DNA of 64,000 nt from Syncephalis plumigaleata (taxonomy: Eukaryota > Zoopagomycota > Zoopagomycetes > Zoopagales > Piptocephalidaceae), in assembly GCA_025201365.1 (NCBI GenBank), contig JAIXMF010000005.1, positions 248,001 through 312,000 of the forward strand. The letters run 5' to 3'. The position numbers were made by a program, and so were the translations under genes. Shown here one piece after another: positions 34,819 through 56,225 of this stretch. Numbering within the stretch: the first letter of the stretch is position 1; the number at the start of each line of letters is the position of its first letter. The notes beneath the pieces were generated by a model. The model made no database searches, was not told the origin of the DNA, and saw nothing but the letters and a program-made list of their open reading frames with translations.

Positions 34819-34873
34819 CTATAATCATAATGGATTAGTATGGATATGATTACTGTGGATTATTACTTACTAG

Positions 34874-36726
34874 TTAAGCTCGCTGTTATTTAGGTGATGC
34901 ATAGCGTATTGTGATTAACATATCATAGATGGCGACTAGAATGATAACTTACGTCCTATCGTACAGAAGCATAAAAATCATGTGCATACCGTGATTAGTA
35001 CATTCATAAATGATAATTAAAATGATAACTCACGCTCTATAATGCATAATCATACGTGGATCGTGTGCCATATTGTGATTAACACATCCACTGATTACTA
35101 TCAGAATGGTAGCTTACGCCCTATTTATACACAAGCATAGATGAAGCATGTTTCATAGTGTGATTAGTACGCCGTGCATTACGATAATAATGTTGACTTA
35201 CGTTCTATCATACGGGGACATACGAAAAGCATATGTCATAGCATAGTTAGTACGTTTATACGTTACAATGATAATGGTGGCTTACAATCTGTTATACACA
35301 AATGTATGGTGGATATACATCGTGATGTAGTCAGCAATCGTGCGTTATGATCGAAAGTGTCTACTTACAGGCTGTTACGGCCAAATATGTGGATTAAGCA
35401 TCGTATTGTGATGATTAGTACTCACATTGCAGTCAGAATGATCGACTTACGGTCTATCATTCAGGAATATATACGTGGATCATATGTCATATCGTAATCA
35501 GTAGTCATTCATTGCAGTCAGAATGATAACTCACAGGCTAGTATACAAATATACGTGGATCGTGTATCAAACAATAATTATTAATACATTGTGCATTACA
35601 ATTAGAATGCTGACTTACAGGCTGTTATTCGCAAGCGTACAAGAATGGCGAACCATAGTGTAATTAGTATTTGTACATTACGGTCAGAACGTTCACTTAC
35701 AGGAGCTTGAAATGGTAGCCACATATAATTTTTATTTACATTACTATTAGCATAGTATTTGTTATGGTCAATAAATTAGCTTACGAGGATTTACTACCAG
35801 ATTAATACGTAGAATAAACATCATAGTGTGATTAACATAGCACTTGTAGTAGTCAATAAACCAACTTACAACCACCATTATTATCTAACAAATGAATAAA
35901 TAGAATAAACATTATAAATGATTAGCATAGCACTTGATATGGCCAATAAACTAGCTTACCCCATTCAGCTAACAAATTAACACGCAAAATAAACATTATA
36001 AATAATTAGCATAGCACTTGGTATGATCAATAAATCAGCTTACTCCTTCGATCTAACAAATTTATAGACAGAATAAACATCATAATGTGATTAGCATGTC
36101 AAAACAATCATTTAATATACATGAACTTACGACCTGGCGCTAATCATCGGTAGACAATGAAACAATAGACTATGATTAGTACATCAACTGATAGGGTCAT
36201 AGTAGTTATACGTACCACCTATTTGTGGAATAGTTCCATTTGGATGGTTAGCTCATTGTATGTATGGTCAGCATGGCATGACTACTACTTACGGCCTATT
36301 GATCCATGTACCGTGTCGATATGGCAGTATGATTAGTAGCATGTCAAGTGGTTTATTTATTTATCGGCAAACCTACGTTCGACTATCGGAATACACACAC
36401 ACACATATGAGGATTGAGCATGATTATATTACAGTTAGCACATTGAATGGATCATTATTACACTGACAACATACCAACTATTGACGGAATAAATGTACAA
36501 ATAGTGTTACAGCATGGTTAATACACGGGAAATTGTGGTCAAATGGTAGACTTGCCAGCTATCGAGCAATCATTAATGAGTCAGCTAGTGTCCATTATCG
36601 TCATTGTTCTTGTTGTTCCTATGACATACCACGACGACGCATCCTAGTGGGCTTGGCTTCAACGGCGACCTGACTGGTGAGAGCGATAACGGCGACGGCA
36701 ATAGCGATAACAGTAGAGAGTTTCAT
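34874..36726 (-). CDS. Secreted peptide precursor built of micro-exons, gene 1
   Basis: Exon 1 (36630-36726) encodes a signal peptide and KPTRMRRR: MKLSTVIAIAVAVIALTSQ, then V-A-V-E-A before the K. Micro-exons follow, downward: CTG 36556-58, TTG 36475-77, TCGAAC 36377-82, GCC 36293-95, GTG 36216-18, GTC 36131-33, then 9, 9, 15 and 9 nt (36044-52, 35960-68, 35870-84, 35785-93), and CTCCT 35701-05. These read AVVERRGHRR then TEWDNNGGLNPPP without a stop. Nine exons of exactly one codon follow (35619 down to 34953): P, P, T, P, I, N, G, S, D. The last coding exon (34871-82) gives R, A, stop. Donors are GTAAGY, GTATGT, GTAGGT, GTACGT, GTGAGT or GCAAGT. Dibasic sites suggest Kex2-type processing. 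I recognise no family; function is unknown. Splicing is predicted only from sequence. Confidence 0.78.
34953..35705 (-). repeat. Tandem exon-intron units with single-codon exons, array 1
   Basis: Ten 3'-splice/exon/5'-splice modules are spaced 81-84 nt apart: one 5-nt exon, then nine 3-nt exons. The introns are recognisably related copies: each starts GTAAGT or GTGAGT, has CATTCTGA-like sequence soon after, a TACTAAT/TATTAAT-like branch, a GATCCACGTAT-like stretch and an end such as ATGATAG or ATAACAG. Only the three bases between AG and GT are unrelated from unit to unit. Confidence 0.85.
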
Positions 36727-37220: not shown

Positions 37221-40200
37221 ATGGCAAGTCCGACGCATTCTATCGCGAGCGGACGCACAACTCCTAGCGAACGTATTCCTCAGGCTACATTTCAGAAACA
37301 GCACACGAACGGAAAAGAGACCAATATCCAAGTGGTTGTACGTTGTCGGTAAGTAGTCTATTCGTGTATGTGTTGTCTTAGTTGTTTATACTCATTCTTG
37401 CATAGAGGACGCAATGACCGCGAACAACGTGAAGGTCAAGCTATTGTGGTCGATACGCCATGTGTTACGGGTCGCGAGATCAAGGTCAACTCGGAGGTGT
37501 CCCGCAAGTACACGTTCGATCGAGTGTTTGGCCCGGAAGCCACTCAAGAGACCGTGTACGATGATATTGTAGCTCCCATTCTGAAGGAGGTACTCGATGG
37601 TTACAACTGCACGATATTCGCCTATGGTCAAACTGGTACTGGTAAAACGTAAGTGCATCTCTATTGTACATTGGAGTTGTGTTGTTAACGCGTGCAACTC
37701 TAACTAGCTACACGATGGAGGGTGATCTAGAGGATGTAGAAGGTTATCATGCTGGTATTATTCCACGTACAATGGATCGTCTATTCCAACTACTAGATCC
37801 AGATGTTCCCGAATATTCCGTAAAACTATCCTATAGCGAATTATACAACGAGGAATTACGCGATTTATTGTCTCCATTCAATGATGATCGTAAATTGACC
37901 ATCTACAAGGAGACTTCCGGATTACGACGTGTAATCATTCAAGGTCTCGAGGAGGTAACCGTCGCTTCAGCGCAAGACGGCATATCCTGGCTGAAGAAAG
38001 GATCGAAGAAGCGCCAAGTAGCCGCTACCAAGTGCAATGAAAACTCATCGCGTTCACATGCTATATTCTCCATTACGGTACATGTCAAGGAAATGACCCT
38101 GGATGGCGAGGAGGTGCTTAAGGTTGGCAAGTTGAACCTAGTCGATCTTGCAGGATCGGAAAGTATAGGTCGTTCTGGCGCAGAGAATAAACGAGCACGA
38201 GAAGCAGGCAACATCAATAAGAGTTTGTTGACCTAGGCCGAGTTATTAACGCGTTAGTTGACAAGGCGGTCATATACCTTATCGGTATGTATTCCCTCTT
38301 CTCGTAGAGACATTAGTGAACATAGACTAGACTAACGCAACAACAACAACGATAATGATAATAGTGATTCCAACTTGACAAGACTATTACAAGATTCTCT
38401 TGGTGGTCGCACGAAAACTTGTATCATTGCCACTATATCGCCAGCCAAGAATGCACGCGAAGAAACACTTAGTACATTGGATTATGCACGTCGTGCCAAG
38501 AATATTCGCAATAAACCAGAGGTCAATCAGCGTATGACAAAGCAGATGCTTATCAAGGAATATATCGTGGAGATTGATCGATTAAAGGCTGCACTACTAG
38601 CAACTCAGGAGAAGAATGGTATTTATTTGGCACAACGCGATTATCAGCAAATGGTCAGTGACAATTCAACCTACAAGGAGCGACTGGCGGAACAACGCAA
38701 GACCATTGAGAACATAGAGGCGGAATTACGACAGGCCGAGGAGCAATTCCTACAACAGATGAGACTGTTCAACGAGACGAAACGAATACTACAAGTTACG
38801 GAACAGAATCTCAAGGAAAGTCGCGAGACCTTGGAACGTACAGAGATCGATCTTCGCAACACTAAGCAGAACTTGACGGAACAAGAGGTGCTTACGGCGG
38901 CACATGCAGCTACCGAGGAACGTCTAAATACAGTTGCACTCATTCTGGGTAACACATTGAATCGGTAACCAGTGATGTTGAACAATTACACGCTAAGATC
39001 GGTCGTAAGCAACGGGTAGAAGAACAGCATATGGCGACAGCATCTCAAATACAGTCATTTGTACAGATGCGTACCGCTGAACTGAAGACGAATACATTTG
39101 ATCACATGAATAGACACTCGACGCTGGTTAATGAACATTCAAACTAATCGATGAATACGCTAAGAATTGTAAACAAGTAAGCTGTATTATCGTTACTTAT
39201 AATACATATATAATACTAATCATTATAATTATGTTAGATGGTGGGAGCATCATTAACAGAAGCAGAACAAAATATACGCGTATTGACACGCAAAGTAAAA
39301 CGATGGAAACGGAATTTATCCAGCATATTGACTCCATGTCGACATTCGTCAAGGATATTCGATCGATTGGTGGAGATCTGCAACAACAAGCACTACAACG
39401 AGCCGAGATATCTCGTGAAACATTTAACGCATTGTTTAATCAATTGAAATCGGAAGTTTCCAAATTGCAGGAACAGGTAAATAGTCTATTATCATTATTA
39501 GTATATACATATATACATATATACTTACACGCTAGTCACTCTATTAGTCGAAAGCACATAATGCGACCCTACATGATAATATTACTAGTTTGTATGATTT
39601 GATGGCACAACAACTAAAGACGCAAAATGATGCATTCATGTCCATTATTAGTGCGTTAAGTCAAGAAGTAGTGAATGAGGTAGGTGAAGTACATAGTATT
39701 AACATCAGCATTACAGCTAGACCCTTCTATTAATCATTACTTGTTTGTAGCAACGTCGATCCAATAAGTATCTCGAGCAATTAAATCAAATTGCTAAGAA
39801 AGAACAAGAAACAGCACGAGAAGCGCAACAAGCGGTTATCTCAAGTGTAGTACAGCTATTAACGAATTTCACCAATGGTCACGAGCATAGTATACAGAAC
39901 ATGTTGACAGCAGTACAAGATACGCATACACAGTCATCAGATGATATCCTTTACTATTTAGCATTAATATTAGTAATAGTTGTAATATTATTAACTCATT
40001 ATTCGTACAGCGTAGAGCATTTGTAGAGGAACAAGTCGAGATTGTTACCAAGGCCAATGATAATATCGAGACATGTCGTACGGAATTACAAGATAAACTA
40101 GGTATGACCACCAAACAACTGGACACTATCGAGCAACAAACAGGCACGTCAATAGGACACATTCATCAGGCAGGTGATGATGTTGAAATGGTAGTCAATG

Positions 40201-48154: not shown

Positions 48155-50952
48155 ATGAAGTTCTCTGCCGTTCTCGCTATTGCTGTCGCCGTGTCGCTCT
48201 CACCAGTCTGGCCACCGTTGAAGCTAAACCCTCTCTGCATCGTCGTGGCATGTTGACCGTAACCCTATCAATTGATATACTAATCGTAGTCTATTGTTTG
48301 ATTGTCTACCGATGATTCCCGATAGCTCGTAAGTTCATGTATACCAAATGATTGATTTGACATACTAATCACATTGCAATGCTTATTCTATCTATTGATT
48401 TGTTAGCACAAGGCGGTAAGCTATCCTATTGACCATAATAAGCACTATGCTAATCGCGTCATAATGTTTATTTTATCTATTCATTTGTTAGATAATGACG
48501 GTGGTAAGTTGGTTTATTGACTACTACAAGTACTATGCTAATTGTAATACAAATGAAATCATATGTGACTACCATCTCAAGGATTTGTAAGTTGCCATTC
48601 TGATCGTAATGAATGGATATACTAATTACAGCATGACACACGATCCACATATGTTCCTATATACTAGCCTGTAAGTTACCATTCTGATTGTAATGAATTG
48701 ATATATATATATTAATTATAGTATGGCACATGATCCGTATATGTGTGATAGTGGGTAAGTTATCATTTTGACCGTAATGAATGGAGGTACTAGTTCTAAC
48801 ATGTCGTATAATTCCTGTATTTCCTTATGATAGGAGGTAAGTCACAATTCTGATCGTAATGCATGAGCGGGTACTAACTACGATACGGCATGTAATTCAC
48901 CTATGTGTGTGCATAACAGTTTGTAAGTTATCATTTTAATTAGAATGAATGATGTGCTAATCATGCTATGACACACGATCCACGTATGTTTGTGTATGAT
49001 AGAAGGTAAGTCTCCATTTTGATTGCAATGAATGAGTACTAATCATCACAATATGATGCTCAATCCGCATATTTGACCATGATAGCCTGTAAGTAGACAC
49101 TTTCGATCATAACCCACGATTGCTAACTACATCATGATGTATATCCACCATACATTTGTGTATAACAGACGGTAAGTTACAATTCTAATTACTATGAATT
49201 GATATATTAATCATATCATGGCACTCGATCCGCGTATGTCCCTGTATTGATAGAAGGTAAGCCATCATTTTAACCGTAATATATGGCTATGCTAATCGTG
49301 CTATGGCACATGATAGGAGGTATGTTGCTATTCCAGGTGTCATTTATGGTATGCTAATCACGCTATGGCATATGGTACACGTATATTCTCATACGATAGT
49401 GGGTAAGTTATCATTTCGATTGCATCTATGCTATACTAACTACGATACGACTGGCAATTTGCGTATGCTTGCACTGATAGGCTGTAAGTTATTAGGCTGA
49501 TGGTAGTATGCACTGTACTAATTAATCTGCCGTGATTCACGTGTGTTACGTATATCAGGCTGTAAGTTACCTTTCCAATCCTCATCTACGCTATACTAAT
49601 CATCCTATGGCATATGATTCTGATATACGTGTGTATGATAGAGAGTAAGTCATCATTCTGTTGAAATGTATGGATGCACTAATTGCAGTATGGCATACGA
49701 TTCACTCTGTTCCTGTATGATAGGAAGTAAGTCAATGTTCCGTTATAAACTATGCTGTTACTAATCATGACATGGCATGTTCGCATACGTTCGTATGTAA
49801 TAGCAAGTAAGCATTATGCTAGTTATACGCGATGATGCATTAATTATGACATGTGACACACGATCCACGTATGTTGGATACGATAGGCCGTAAGTAATCA
49901 TTCTGATTGTTGTCTACGGTGTATTAACTATGATACGACAATCGATCTGCATATGTTTTTGACTAATAGGAGGTAAGTGAAAGATGCTTATATTGTCTAA
50001 GGTACTAACAGCAACACGGTACATGATTCACGTATGCTTGTGTAAATAGAAGGTAAGCCATCATTTGGACTGCAACATATGGATGTACTAATTGTAGTAT
50101 GGCACACAATCACCGTATGTTTATTTGTGGCAGGAGGTAAGTCATCATTCCAATAATAATGCATGGCGTACTAATTACAGTATGGCATGCAATCATGTAT
50201 GCTTGGATATAACAGACCGTAAGCTACCATTCTGATTGCAATGCATGGATGTACTAATTATGATATCGCACATGTCCACCTATGTTTCGTATAATAGAAA
50301 GTAAGTTCCATACTCTTACTACAATGAATGGATGCACTAATGATGCTATGGCATGCAACAAACTATGTTATGCATGATAGGAGGTAAGCAATATTCTAAT
50401 TGTAATGCATGGATGTACTAATGACAACATGACATACGATCCACATATGTTTGTGCATAACAGATTGTAAGTTGACGTCTCGATGATAATGGATGGATGT
50501 ACTAATGACAATCTGGCACACCATTCGCGTATACTCGTTCATCGTAGAACGTAAGTAAATATTTCGATTGAGTGTATGTGATACTAATCGTGATATGTGA
50601 CATGCAATCCACGTATGCTTCGTGACTGATAGGAGGTATGTTAACACTTTAATCATCGTGTATGAGTACTAACGGAATATGACACACCACTCATGCATGC
50701 TTGTATACAACAGCGGGTAAGTTGTCATTCTGGCCATAGTGTATCGTGTACTAACAGTGTGTGTGATGCATATTTGTGTATGCCAGATGGTAAGCAGTCA
50801 TTTCCCGATTGTAAACTATGGCATACTAATCACAGTATGACACATGATCCGTGTATACTCGTGTACCATAGAAGGTAAGCTACCATTCCAATTGTAATAT
50901 AAATGTACTAATCACACTATGGCATGCCCTACTTTTATAGAACCGTCATTAA
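48155..50952 (+). CDS. Secreted peptide precursor built of micro-exons, gene 2
   Basis: Exon 1 (48155-48247) encodes a signal peptide and KPSLHRR; the first intron starts GCATGT. Micro-exons CTC (48326-28), CACAAGGCG (48407-15), a 12-nt exon (48492-503) and GATTT (48582-86) read APQGDNDGGF. Then come 28 exons of exactly one codon, in phase 0. The first 14 are P48668, W48752, E48834, F48920, K49003, P49086, T49169, K49254, E49317, W49400, A49481, A49559, R49642, E49724; the other 14 are listed with the repeat entry. The last coding exon (50941-50955) gives N, R, H, stop. Introns are 60-83 nt. In exon 1, near 48193, one base is missing relative to gene 1, so signal peptide and KPSLHRR lie in different frames; similar breaks in housekeeping genes suggest a consensus error. 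The rest is open to the stop. Function is unknown. Confidence 0.78.
48582..50940 (+). repeat. Tandem exon-intron units with single-codon exons, array 2
   Basis: Twenty-nine modules with most exon starts 78-86 nt apart (shortest intervals 63, 69 and 73). Each reads YAG, three bases, GTAAGY (GTATGT twice); the first module has five bases. Introns are degenerate copies of one sequence: GTAAGTTATCATTCTGATTG, then TGGATGTACTAAT, then TATGGCAYACGATCC, then a GTATG-rich end such as TATGATAG. Single-codon exons 15-28: Q49804, A49887, E49970, K50050, E50134, T50216, K50298, E50381, I50464, N50548, E50633, R50714, M50787, K50872. The charged, helix-friendly composition differs from the Pro-rich run of gene 1. 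Tandem duplication of a one-codon unit explains the structure. Confidence 0.88.
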
Positions 50953-51190
50953 GCAGTAATTAATAATCCAACAAATAATCATACTCATACTAATCCATTA
51001 TGATTACAGAACAAGACAAGGACATCATCAAGTAGATATTATAGGTATTCAAGTCAAGAATGTATTGGTGCAAGACCCTTTAGTGTCCATGCCATTCAAG
51101 TCATTATTCCTTGGTACAACAACAACAACAATATATCTACAAGATCATTCAATCATTTATTGAATAAATATGTCGTATTCTGACCATTAC
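50953..51190 (+). other. 3' UTR of micro-exon gene 2 with an intron
   Basis: After the stop, a donor GTAATT (50956) and a CATACTAATCC branch lead to the acceptor ATTACAG at 51009. The final exon from 51010 is the near-identical partner of 34637-34818. AATAAA lies at 51163-51168. The intron in the UTR has the same branch and acceptor context in both genes. Confidence 0.7.
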
Positions 51191-53782: not shown

Positions 53783-56225
53783 TCACGGATGAATTGTTTT
53801 TTGTTGTTTGGACCCCCGTTGTCCTTGCTCATCATTGCTTGAACGTTTAGAAGGAACAGCACCTCGTTGGAATTGTGTTGGAACACCCTTTCCATCGCGA
53901 ACACTGTGGATAATCTGAATGAAGTTCAGACATGCTGCCATATCCCGATTCCATACACGATACTCGAATCTTTCAATTGGCTTGTTGTCTTTATCCAGCT
54001 CGACCTCCTCGTCCTTCTCGTCATCCACGTCCATCATACCCTCTTGAACCTTCTTGTCCTTGATATTCTTCATGGCTTCTTGACAATTTTGATGTGTGCA
54101 TCTAATAAAATAATTAATTACTATATCATGATAAATAGCAAAGTGTAATAAATTGTACTTACCTTAAGAGACCATGTCGAATAACTTTAGGACCGTCTTC
54201 GTGTTTCTTGAGTCGAGGATTTCTGACCTTCTTGAACGTCTCGAGGGAGGGATTGTTGCACTCGGGACAGCACTTGCTGGTCTTATGCTCATCAATTAGA
54301 AAGACTTTAAAGTGTTGTTGTATAAGTCTTCTAAAGCCAACACCACGAATGGGCCCGTGGTGTTTGGCGTGAGGAGCTGACCAGTTGCCCATCACAAACA
54401 CCGCCTCCTTACCGAACTTCTCAGTTAGCTCTTGGATCAGCTTATGATCACTTTGTTGTTTGTTGATGTAGGCTGAGAGCTTTAGCTTTCTGAAAAGAGG
54501 TTGAGGGGTAGGACGGGTGGTGGGCTCGGTGGAGGGCTCAGCGGCAGAATTGGCGATGGGATCGGTGATGGGATCGGTGGCAGGACGGGTGATGGGGGTG
54601 GTGAGCGTTTCCCGGTAGAAGTTGGTAAGAATATCTGAGTGCTGTGATCGACACTTCAGATATTTCTCGTAATCCGCCAGAGATACAGCGCTGCCCTGGG
54701 TCCTTGAAAGAGCCACCTCGGCCTGCTGCACCGCTTGATTCCCCTTCTTGCAGTTTTGAATGATCTTGCGGTATTTCTTCATCTTTCGCATCTTGTCTTG
54801 ATGTAGTTTCGTGTACCGATATTTGATCGGCTTTTCTGATGTCGAATCTTCGTGTACACAAAACAATAGATCTCTTCTTCCAGGGTCCACCGCCACGCAT
54901 TTGCCTTTGAGGTTGTTGCGATCCTCCTCACTTAAATCGGTGATATATTCGATGCTCTTCTTTGCTGGTTCCTCTGCTGCTGACTTCGCTCCCCGTCTCT
55001 TGGTAATCTTCTTGGTGATCTTCTCGGCAATATTCTCGTTGACCTTCTCGTTGACCTTCTCAATGCCCTTCTTGATGACCGTAACACCAACGCCATCGGT
55101 GTCAATTGAACCAAAAAACTCGAGCTCACCATCCTTTTGATTTCTAAGTGGCTTTGCCTTAAGGTTCACGACTTGGCTCCAATGTCTGTGCTTCCAAGCC
55201 TTAAGCTCTTCCTCAGTCTTCTTCTTCATCTTCTCCCCCGCTTTCTTGGCCTCCTCCCTCTTCTTATCTTCTTCACGCCTACACTTGCAATTACCTAGTA
55301 TGTTCTGGCAAAGGATAACGGTGTCTATGTGGATGTAACACGGCGAAAACGAACGGCGCATGGGGAAACACTCAAAGGCCTTTAAGCCGAGGGCTTCAAA
55401 TAAAAGAGCAAGCTTGTAGAACGCTTTGAAATGCATAGCTGGATTTGCTTTACAATCATAATAAATATGATCCTTTTCAAACTCGTAGTTATCAGGATAA
55501 GCTTTTAGAACGGGCTCAAAGACGTCGAATGCTTCTGCAAGCTCAGGCTCTTTCTCAAATGTCGCTCGAGATACACCTTGCTTCGCTATTGCAGCTTTAA
55601 ATCTTCTTACAGGAGTAGTGATTTCCTTACTGATTTTCTCGCGAAGCACAGTATCATCTACACCCTGTTCGGACAATTCCTTCCTCATATCCTTTATCTT
55701 CTTTTTGACCTTGAAGTACTTGTTGATGGCGCGGCGAAGATGGTCGGCAAAGTGTAGCTTGATGTTGTTTGTATAAGCAACATAAATTCTGTTTGCTTCG
55801 TAGGTAGCCGACTGATCAGCTTTAACAAAATCTGGCTTTTGATAGCCAGTAGCGGTATAATAACCATCCCAATGGCCGCTGATCAATTCGCGAAGTTCGG
55901 CTGTCCTACCCTTGATCTGACTCTTTGTTTTGCGATTGAGTAAAGAAAGCCACACCTCTTTGAAAAAGTCTTTGTGGACGTACTTTTTAAACTCAAAGCT
56001 TGCATTCCCCTCAAATTCACTGAGAAATATGTACTTCGAGAGCGAGTAGGCATGGAAGGTCGTCGTATGCACAGTGTTTACTAGATGGCGTAAAACATCG
56101 TGATACTCTTTCTTCCAACCAATGCCAGAGAGAGACGACTTCACAGACAGCACTCGTTCACTGTCGGCAGCAGATTGGGAACTGCCTTCAGTTGACGAGA
56201 CTGGAGTCTCTGTCTGTGATGTCAT
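53783..56225 (-). CDS. Fanzor: eukaryotic TnpB-like RNA-guided nuclease
   Basis: Two exons (56225-54162ish and about 54093-53783) joined over a 60-70-nt intron with GTAAGT and TTAG. The protein, nearly 790 residues, has a helical N-terminal part, a Lys/Glu-rich middle, and a split RuvC domain: motif I CVAVDPGRRDLLFCV, a Pro/Thr repeat insertion (TTPITRPATDPITDP), VFVMGNWSAPHAKHHGP, then FLIDEHKTSKCCPEC, and after the intron CTHQNC, completing a zinc ribbon, and motif III WNRDMAACLNF. The usual RuvC-II glutamate position lacks Glu; the Glu of LIDEHKTS is the likely substitute, as described for Fanzors. All catalytic acids appear present and the frame is open, so it may be active. Fanzors are RNA-guided DNA endonucleases carried by mobile elements. 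I cannot find clear element ends. The gene lies alone between host genes. Confidence 0.88.

Follow-up and report, generated by a model that had tools for sequence, protein, structure and literature searches.

Syncephalis plumigaleata carries a large family of genes, apparently for short secreted peptides, in which the mature region is almost certainly written with one codon per exon; each codon would be left behind as an intron is removed. The architecture of these genes, their phase, the avoidance of stop codons and the agreement with paralogues and with an annotated protein are read directly from the DNA. We describe them from the window, i.e., the whole stretch of 64,000 nucleotides that was analysed, and from the relatives of its two arrays elsewhere in the genome.

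The first array of the window lies on the plus strand, between 48668 and 50874, where the first-pass annotation had placed 28 consecutive three-base units with splice motifs on both sides. A pattern search found all of them again (28/28 YAG-NNN-GTAAGY or YAG-NNN-GTATGT units), with 26 GTAAGY and two GTATGT donors (49317 and 50633) and a unit spacing of 63-86 bp, typically about 83 bp. The 28 single-codon exons, with 27 introns between them, read PWEFKPTKEWAAREQAEKETKEINERMK and contain no stop, as had been proposed. The gene begins with exon 1 (48155..48247), a leader of the MKFSAVLAIAVAV... type, and its first donor is GCATGT (48248), which makes the first intron of this copy a GC-AG intron. 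Exons of 3 nt (CTC, 48326..48328), 9 nt (CACAAGGCG, 48407..48415) and 12 nt (ATAATGACGGTG, 48492..48503) follow, and then the 5-nt exon GATTT (48582..48586), which had been credited with setting the phase; indeed, in the intact relatives, a 5- or 2-nt exon at this place shifts the phase from 1 to 0. Downstream of the array, the short exon expected to end the frame is a 15-nt micro-exon, AACCGTCATTAAGCA (N-R-H-stop, 50941..50955), whose TAA is in the phase of the array. It is followed by a 3' untranslated exon, AACAAGACAAGGACATCATCAAG...GTATTCAAGTCAAGAATG... (51010..51170, right end approximate), that is conserved in the family. When as many as 3 mismatches are allowed, the motif of this exon occurs 177 times (control 0), and the leader exon has 150 matches in the genome, haplotig copies included.

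A second family member occupies the minus strand of the window (34871..36726), with a leader exon of 97 nt as parsed and then exons of 3-15 nt. Its nine single-codon exons (P P T P I N G S D) and its terminal exon CGAGCTTAACTA, which carries an in-frame TAA, follow the same plan, as had been claimed for a paralogue. Rfam, searched at gathering thresholds over the whole window, gave no match. In both arrays the units are arranged head to tail and Tandem Repeats Finder reports 84-bp periods, which is what a non-coding tandem satellite of about 83 bp, merely resembling splice sites, would give. Against such a satellite stand the absence of stops, the phase held through the terminal exons, and the fact that contiguous relatives and an annotated protein agree with the arrays (see below). 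Moreover, the mean identity of neighbouring introns (0.674) is barely above that of introns from different arrays (0.659). We consider this explanation practically negligible.

The signal is not restricted to the window. Genome-wide, we counted 2302 (1221 + 1081) neighbouring pairs of YAG-NNN-GTAAGY units, haplotig duplicates included, versus 3 (2 + 1) with the pattern reversed. The composition-based stop rate of 3.56% predicts about 82 stops among the first codons of these pairs. TRA was found four times, always as TGA (two sequences, each present twice) and never as TAA, the backward control giving 2; TRG was found 73 times, all TGG and none TAG among the matches listed; and TRT was found 62 times. 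One of the two TGA-containing sequences, on C112 and repeated on C226, is a short copy with a 2-nt exon before the TGA, its phase being uncertain. The other is on C68 and repeated on C193.

We then segmented loci by their splice signals, with no reading frame imposed, using donor, acceptor and branch models trained on 324 array introns; the absence of stops played no part in this training. Thirty-two loci were parsed, those left out being haplotig partners, short or degenerate (L001-L008, L029-L036, L038, L039, L042, L051, L052). The resulting chains comprise 893 exons, 773 of them of 3 nt. Among the 120 others, 88 are multiples of three and 32 are not, which brings the multiples of three to 861/893 overall, while the same parse of the reversed sequences gave 101 exons, five of them of 3 nt. 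No stop occurs in 771 single-codon exons, versus 27.4 expected (P 7.5e-13), and in these exons the third base is not independent of the two before it (chi2 p 6e-55). Both P values overstate independence, since the units share descent and also served to train the models. In the other exons that are multiples of three, 2 of 140 codons are stops and probably reflect misparses.

These results also bear on the possibility that each array is one long intron removed by recursive splicing, with the NNN dropped and a product reduced to leader and terminal exon. In recursive splicing, an acceptor and a donor nearly abut and work as a ratchet, and zero-nucleotide waypoints leave nothing behind. The YAG beside GTAAGT does look like what is commonly called a ratchet point, and in Syncephalis, where acceptor and donor also nearly abut, a ratchet is possible, but here three bases appear to be kept at each step. 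Discarded triplets should neither avoid stops nor show a codon-type dependence of the third base, nor should they form a C-CC-C framework or match a contiguous relative; the NNN are, on the contrary, under coding constraint, unlike a ratchet site of which nothing is retained. We regard this explanation as very improbable, and return to single-codon exons that are kept and translated.

The phase set upstream of the arrays is maintained to their end. Of 22 arrays, those of 20 loci and the two of the window, 20 reached a terminal exon of 8-15 nt, always with a TAA in the phase of the preceding single-codon exons; the arrays of L011 and L023 reached none. We also applied a stricter parse to 14 genes, requiring a path from the leader to the terminal TAA motif and leaving the phase of this motif free. 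It succeeded in 12 genes and found no path in two. Six of the 12 run uninterrupted from ATG to TAA through 10-33 single-codon exons (L012, L015, L019, L021, L025 and L026), four have a broken exon 1 (the window gene, L010, L013 and L022) and two were parsed out of frame (L014 and L017). A further model, in which stops were forbidden and the terminal motif was required, is descriptive and not a test. Applied to 34 leaders, haplotig partners included, it gave paths for 29, with 5-46 single-codon exons and at most 51 exons in total (L044). Leaders are intact in 24 of these 29 genes, and the frame is broken in exon 1 in 5 of the 34, the window gene among them. A frame-constrained model without an end rule was abandoned, having run past the stop into the untranslated exon, and the frame-blind parses and the model with the terminal rule were used instead. 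Separately, L011 (C1:1408000-1417999, minus strand) represents a second subfamily, in which single-codon exons are mixed with repeated exons of 27 and 21 nt (PSYNHIPEE / PSYNHTPEE).

The array introns have a modal length of 80 nt, the donor GTAAGT and the branch sequence TACTAAT or TACTAAC. The distance from branch to acceptor is 39-44 nt in 238 of the 281 introns with a branch match (43 array introns have none). When AGs closer than 8 nt to the branch are disregarded, the chosen YAG is the first one downstream in 279 of the 281; with every AG counted, it comes first in 234. By their GT-AG ends, their branch site and the AG-free stretch between branch and acceptor, these are U2-type spliceosomal introns.

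Some relatives of these genes are contiguous. The protein P0127 is encoded, at 100%, by an uninterrupted frame (C223:1552857-1553084). The surrounding DNA (L053, C223:1552780-1553280) matches the spliced form of L037 across its first joins (G, AAC, CTCAAGGCG, AGGAT, CCT) and again near the end, where ACC-GTC-CCT-TGG-CC stands against ACAGTTCCTTGGCC, and TAAGCA is fused directly to the AACAAGACAAGG of the untranslated exon; between these ends the alignment is poor and has a 33-base gap. L054 (C329:130120-130560) is a second intronless member of the family. In the other subfamily, the 63 parsed exons of L011 match P0133, with E 2.5e-13 when the two sequences are compared alone. P0133 is itself matched over its first 111 residues, with no stop, at C318:1455923-1456258 (96%). 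The residues of the single-codon exons of L011, taken alone and in order, score 27.3 bits against P0133, versus 19.2 for the best of 200 shuffles of their order. Intronless members may be retrocopies or may represent the ancestral state. In addition, leader matches with the untranslated-exon motif close downstream point to further intronless members beside the many-intron ones.

An annotated protein passes through such an array as well. Splicing of C362:262196-258186 yields the exact sequence of BDF22DRAFT_685685 (P0121, 92 aa), and the match crosses 38 consecutive single-codon exons. One join came out of this matching as two abutting introns, where our full parse puts the exon TGC. The record leaves out six micro-exons of this parse, one of them of 2 nt, and ends inside the last intron; including the 2-nt exon restores the usual terminal stop. 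P0121 is an independent gene model, which may stem from a gene predictor and not from transcripts and which, because of the dropped micro-exons and the read-through into the last intron, we do not take as transcript based. Hence, exon lengths, stop avoidance, the phase-setting 5- or 2-nt exon, the terminal stops in frame, the annotated protein and the contiguous relatives agree with the central claim of the first-pass annotation, consecutive single-codon exons in one frame. Among 27 related proteins (P0121-P0147), only P0121 matches exactly, 11 match in part and 15 have no locus among those parsed. P0122 was matched to 69 of 72 positions at L049. For P0125 compared to the haplotig L041, a long codon run agrees by eye, and the exact match halted at 40 of 83 positions. 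P0139, P0140 and P0142-P0147, short JGI or ENA proteins with the same leader, are relatives in other samples.

These annotated proteins also raise the question of skipping. The single-codon exons could be cassette exons that are coding and often skipped, one gene then giving many peptides, as skipping reportedly does in schistosome micro-exon genes. The array exons are symmetric (multiples of three), any subset of them can be skipped in frame, the P0121 model does without six micro-exons present in the full parse of its own locus, and P0125, by eye, misses three residues of L041 whose exons have GTAGGT donors. Nevertheless, the splice signals of the arrays are near consensus, the cysteine framework requires most of the residues, and the omissions may be artefacts of the predictor, the P0121 record also entering an intron. 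Frequent skipping is a possibility, on this evidence a rather unlikely one.

The predicted products begin with a leader that resembles a secretion signal (MKFSAVIAIAVAVVALTSLVAVEASP.LxRR) and that is hydrophobic by inspection. It is conserved, and in most of 18 aligned products, chosen from 29 models, it ends in a dibasic motif that we take to be a Kex2-type cleavage site, which suggests secretion and processing of the putative precursor. Ten of the 18 share a C...CC...C framework with loops of varying length. L044 fuses a C-CC-C domain to the helix-like segment of the window gene and L025 (IEARKQAEKERQAINDRMKNRH against WAAREQAEKETKEINERMKNRH). Pfam gave nothing above the curated cut-off for five spliced products, and a PDB profile search with the product alignment returned two weak matches (best E 0.035).

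The family may be real and its copy in the window nonetheless a pseudogene. Exon 1 of this copy measures 93 nt, one fewer than the 94 nt that the models give for 24 intact relatives, so that its ATG does not open the frame of the array, and its first donor is GC. Against this, the window array is itself stop-free, and L022 and L032, which are 99.25% identical (6 mismatches, 15 gaps), differ in whether exon 1 is open. In the same window, a kinesin frame shifts twice within a conserved stretch of the motor (38150-38300, plus strand, by eye against Syncephalis pseudoplumigaleata, to which the kinesin ORF is 92% identical). The kinesin shifts and the exon 1 difference between L022 and L032 make base errors in the assembly likely. 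Decay of the window copy is thus a serious possibility, though not the one we favour; the copy may be dead, misassembled or mis-sequenced. Elsewhere in the window, a 688-aa ORF (54159-56225, minus strand) is a Fanzor1 relative; its PDB matches are Fanzor 1 of Parasitella parasitica (E 4e-103) and the Fanzor of Spizellomyces punctatus (E 5e-26), and it has no match in the phage collection searched.

We also compared how codons and introns evolve. Ten pairs of haplotigs or close relatives provided 286 aligned codons, of which 20 differ (7.0%); the residue is altered in 18 cases and a stop arises in none. Of 7592 intron triplets, 628 changed (8.3%); in these pairs, codons are no more changeable than intron triplets. 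Other alignments of five of the pairs, with 14 of 138 codons changed and none of these changes synonymous, are superseded by the ten-pair analysis. Multi-base changes account for 12 of the 20 changed codons versus 133 of the 628 changed intron triplets (p 0.00025), an excess that is partly unexplained. The flanks of some changed codons have diverged, which makes unit exchange or misalignment a likely cause in part. Pairing by intron similarity in the paralogues L045-L047 gave differences of 7-15% for introns and 22-44% for codons. Some members may thus be under diversifying selection and others under constraint, which would fit the pattern; a process that replaces codons may also be at work. 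Within arrays, 58 intron pairs exceed 85% identity, and the codon is the same in 31% of them, versus 4.4% of 3814 other pairs, as expected if cassettes duplicate whole; since neighbouring introns barely surpass introns of different arrays in similarity, such duplications are old or rare. The codons that outpace the introns in L045-L047 and the multi-base codon changes led us to consider that intron and codon form movable units that are gained, lost, exchanged and perhaps skipped, so that the protein is edited residue by residue, conserved introns framing variable codons. We put this forward tentatively and with some doubt, since in close pairs codons change no more often than introns and some of the flanks are diverged.

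Our literature searches, from which bioRxiv preprints and most subscription journals were outside scope, turned up no paper recognised as describing consecutive single-codon exons, in line with the earlier remark that no gene with a residue-per-exon segment was known. The nearest kinds, compared by description, appear to be schistosome micro-exon genes and aphid bicycle genes, and the Syncephalis family would be the micro-exon plan at its extreme. Schistosome micro-exon genes are described as having 10-20 short exons of 6-81 bp (3-81 bp in the abstract), mostly 15 bp, and introns of 0.1-5 kb (PMC10526429). The same account lets one recognise several likenesses, i.e., a parasite, secreted products (putative here), many symmetric micro-exons and difficult annotation (PMC10526429). 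Unlike them, Syncephalis has as many as 46 successive exons that each measure exactly 3 nt, such exons making up 773 of the 893 parsed, with introns that are alike and about 80 nt long. Bicycle genes are presented as putative effectors of divergent sequence, with an average of about 17 exons, the internal ones being numerous, small and mostly in phase 2, and their relative megacycle as having more than 100 microexons (PMC9168663). The Syncephalis genes share with them the putative effector status and the many small internal exons, but their arrays, once past the 5- or 2-nt exon, run in phase 0 with one codon per exon. Single tiny exons are on record, with 1 nt in Fusarium CYP621A (PMC12940212, PMC4674806); Arabidopsis APC11 has one of 1 nt and Drosophila homothorax one of 3 nt (PMC8831610). 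They show that splicing can handle exons of 1-3 nt, in fungi too, but they are single exons in otherwise normal genes.

From the DNA, we infer not only splicing itself but also its order, the secretion of the product and its role. A conventional first exon would encode the leader; exons of 3, 6, 9 or 12 nt, plus one of 5 nt (or 2 nt), would bring the frame to phase 0; then as many as 46 exons, each of exactly 3 nt, between introns of about 80 nt, would be joined one after the other and closed by a short terminal exon with TAA. With GTAAGY and a TACTAAY lying about 42 nt before the YAG, every array intron would contain a complete set of signals and could therefore be removed by intron definition, one codon being left at each removal. 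Since an acceptor lies only 3 nt from the next donor, two spliceosomes would hardly fit, and the introns would have to be removed stepwise or alternately. Because the frame survives the loss of any array exon, skipping, whether regulated or noisy, would yield mixtures of peptides. The product would be a short secreted peptide, often of the C-CC-C type, most likely acting at the interface with the host fungus, perhaps as an effector. Piptocephalis and Syncephalis are described as mycoparasitic (PMC10386755).

These runs of 3-nt exons carry the micro-exon gene to its limit, the exon being as small as the codon dozens of times over in one fungal family. The family tests the lower limit of exon size under intron definition, and its arrays offer a natural system for the study of splicing order and fidelity. 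It also shows how annotation can garble such genes, as the public model P0121 illustrates. Finally, intron and codon together make one cassette of about 83 bp, the gain or loss of which would alter the protein by exactly one residue while keeping the frame, a route by which single residues could enter or leave a putative secreted protein.
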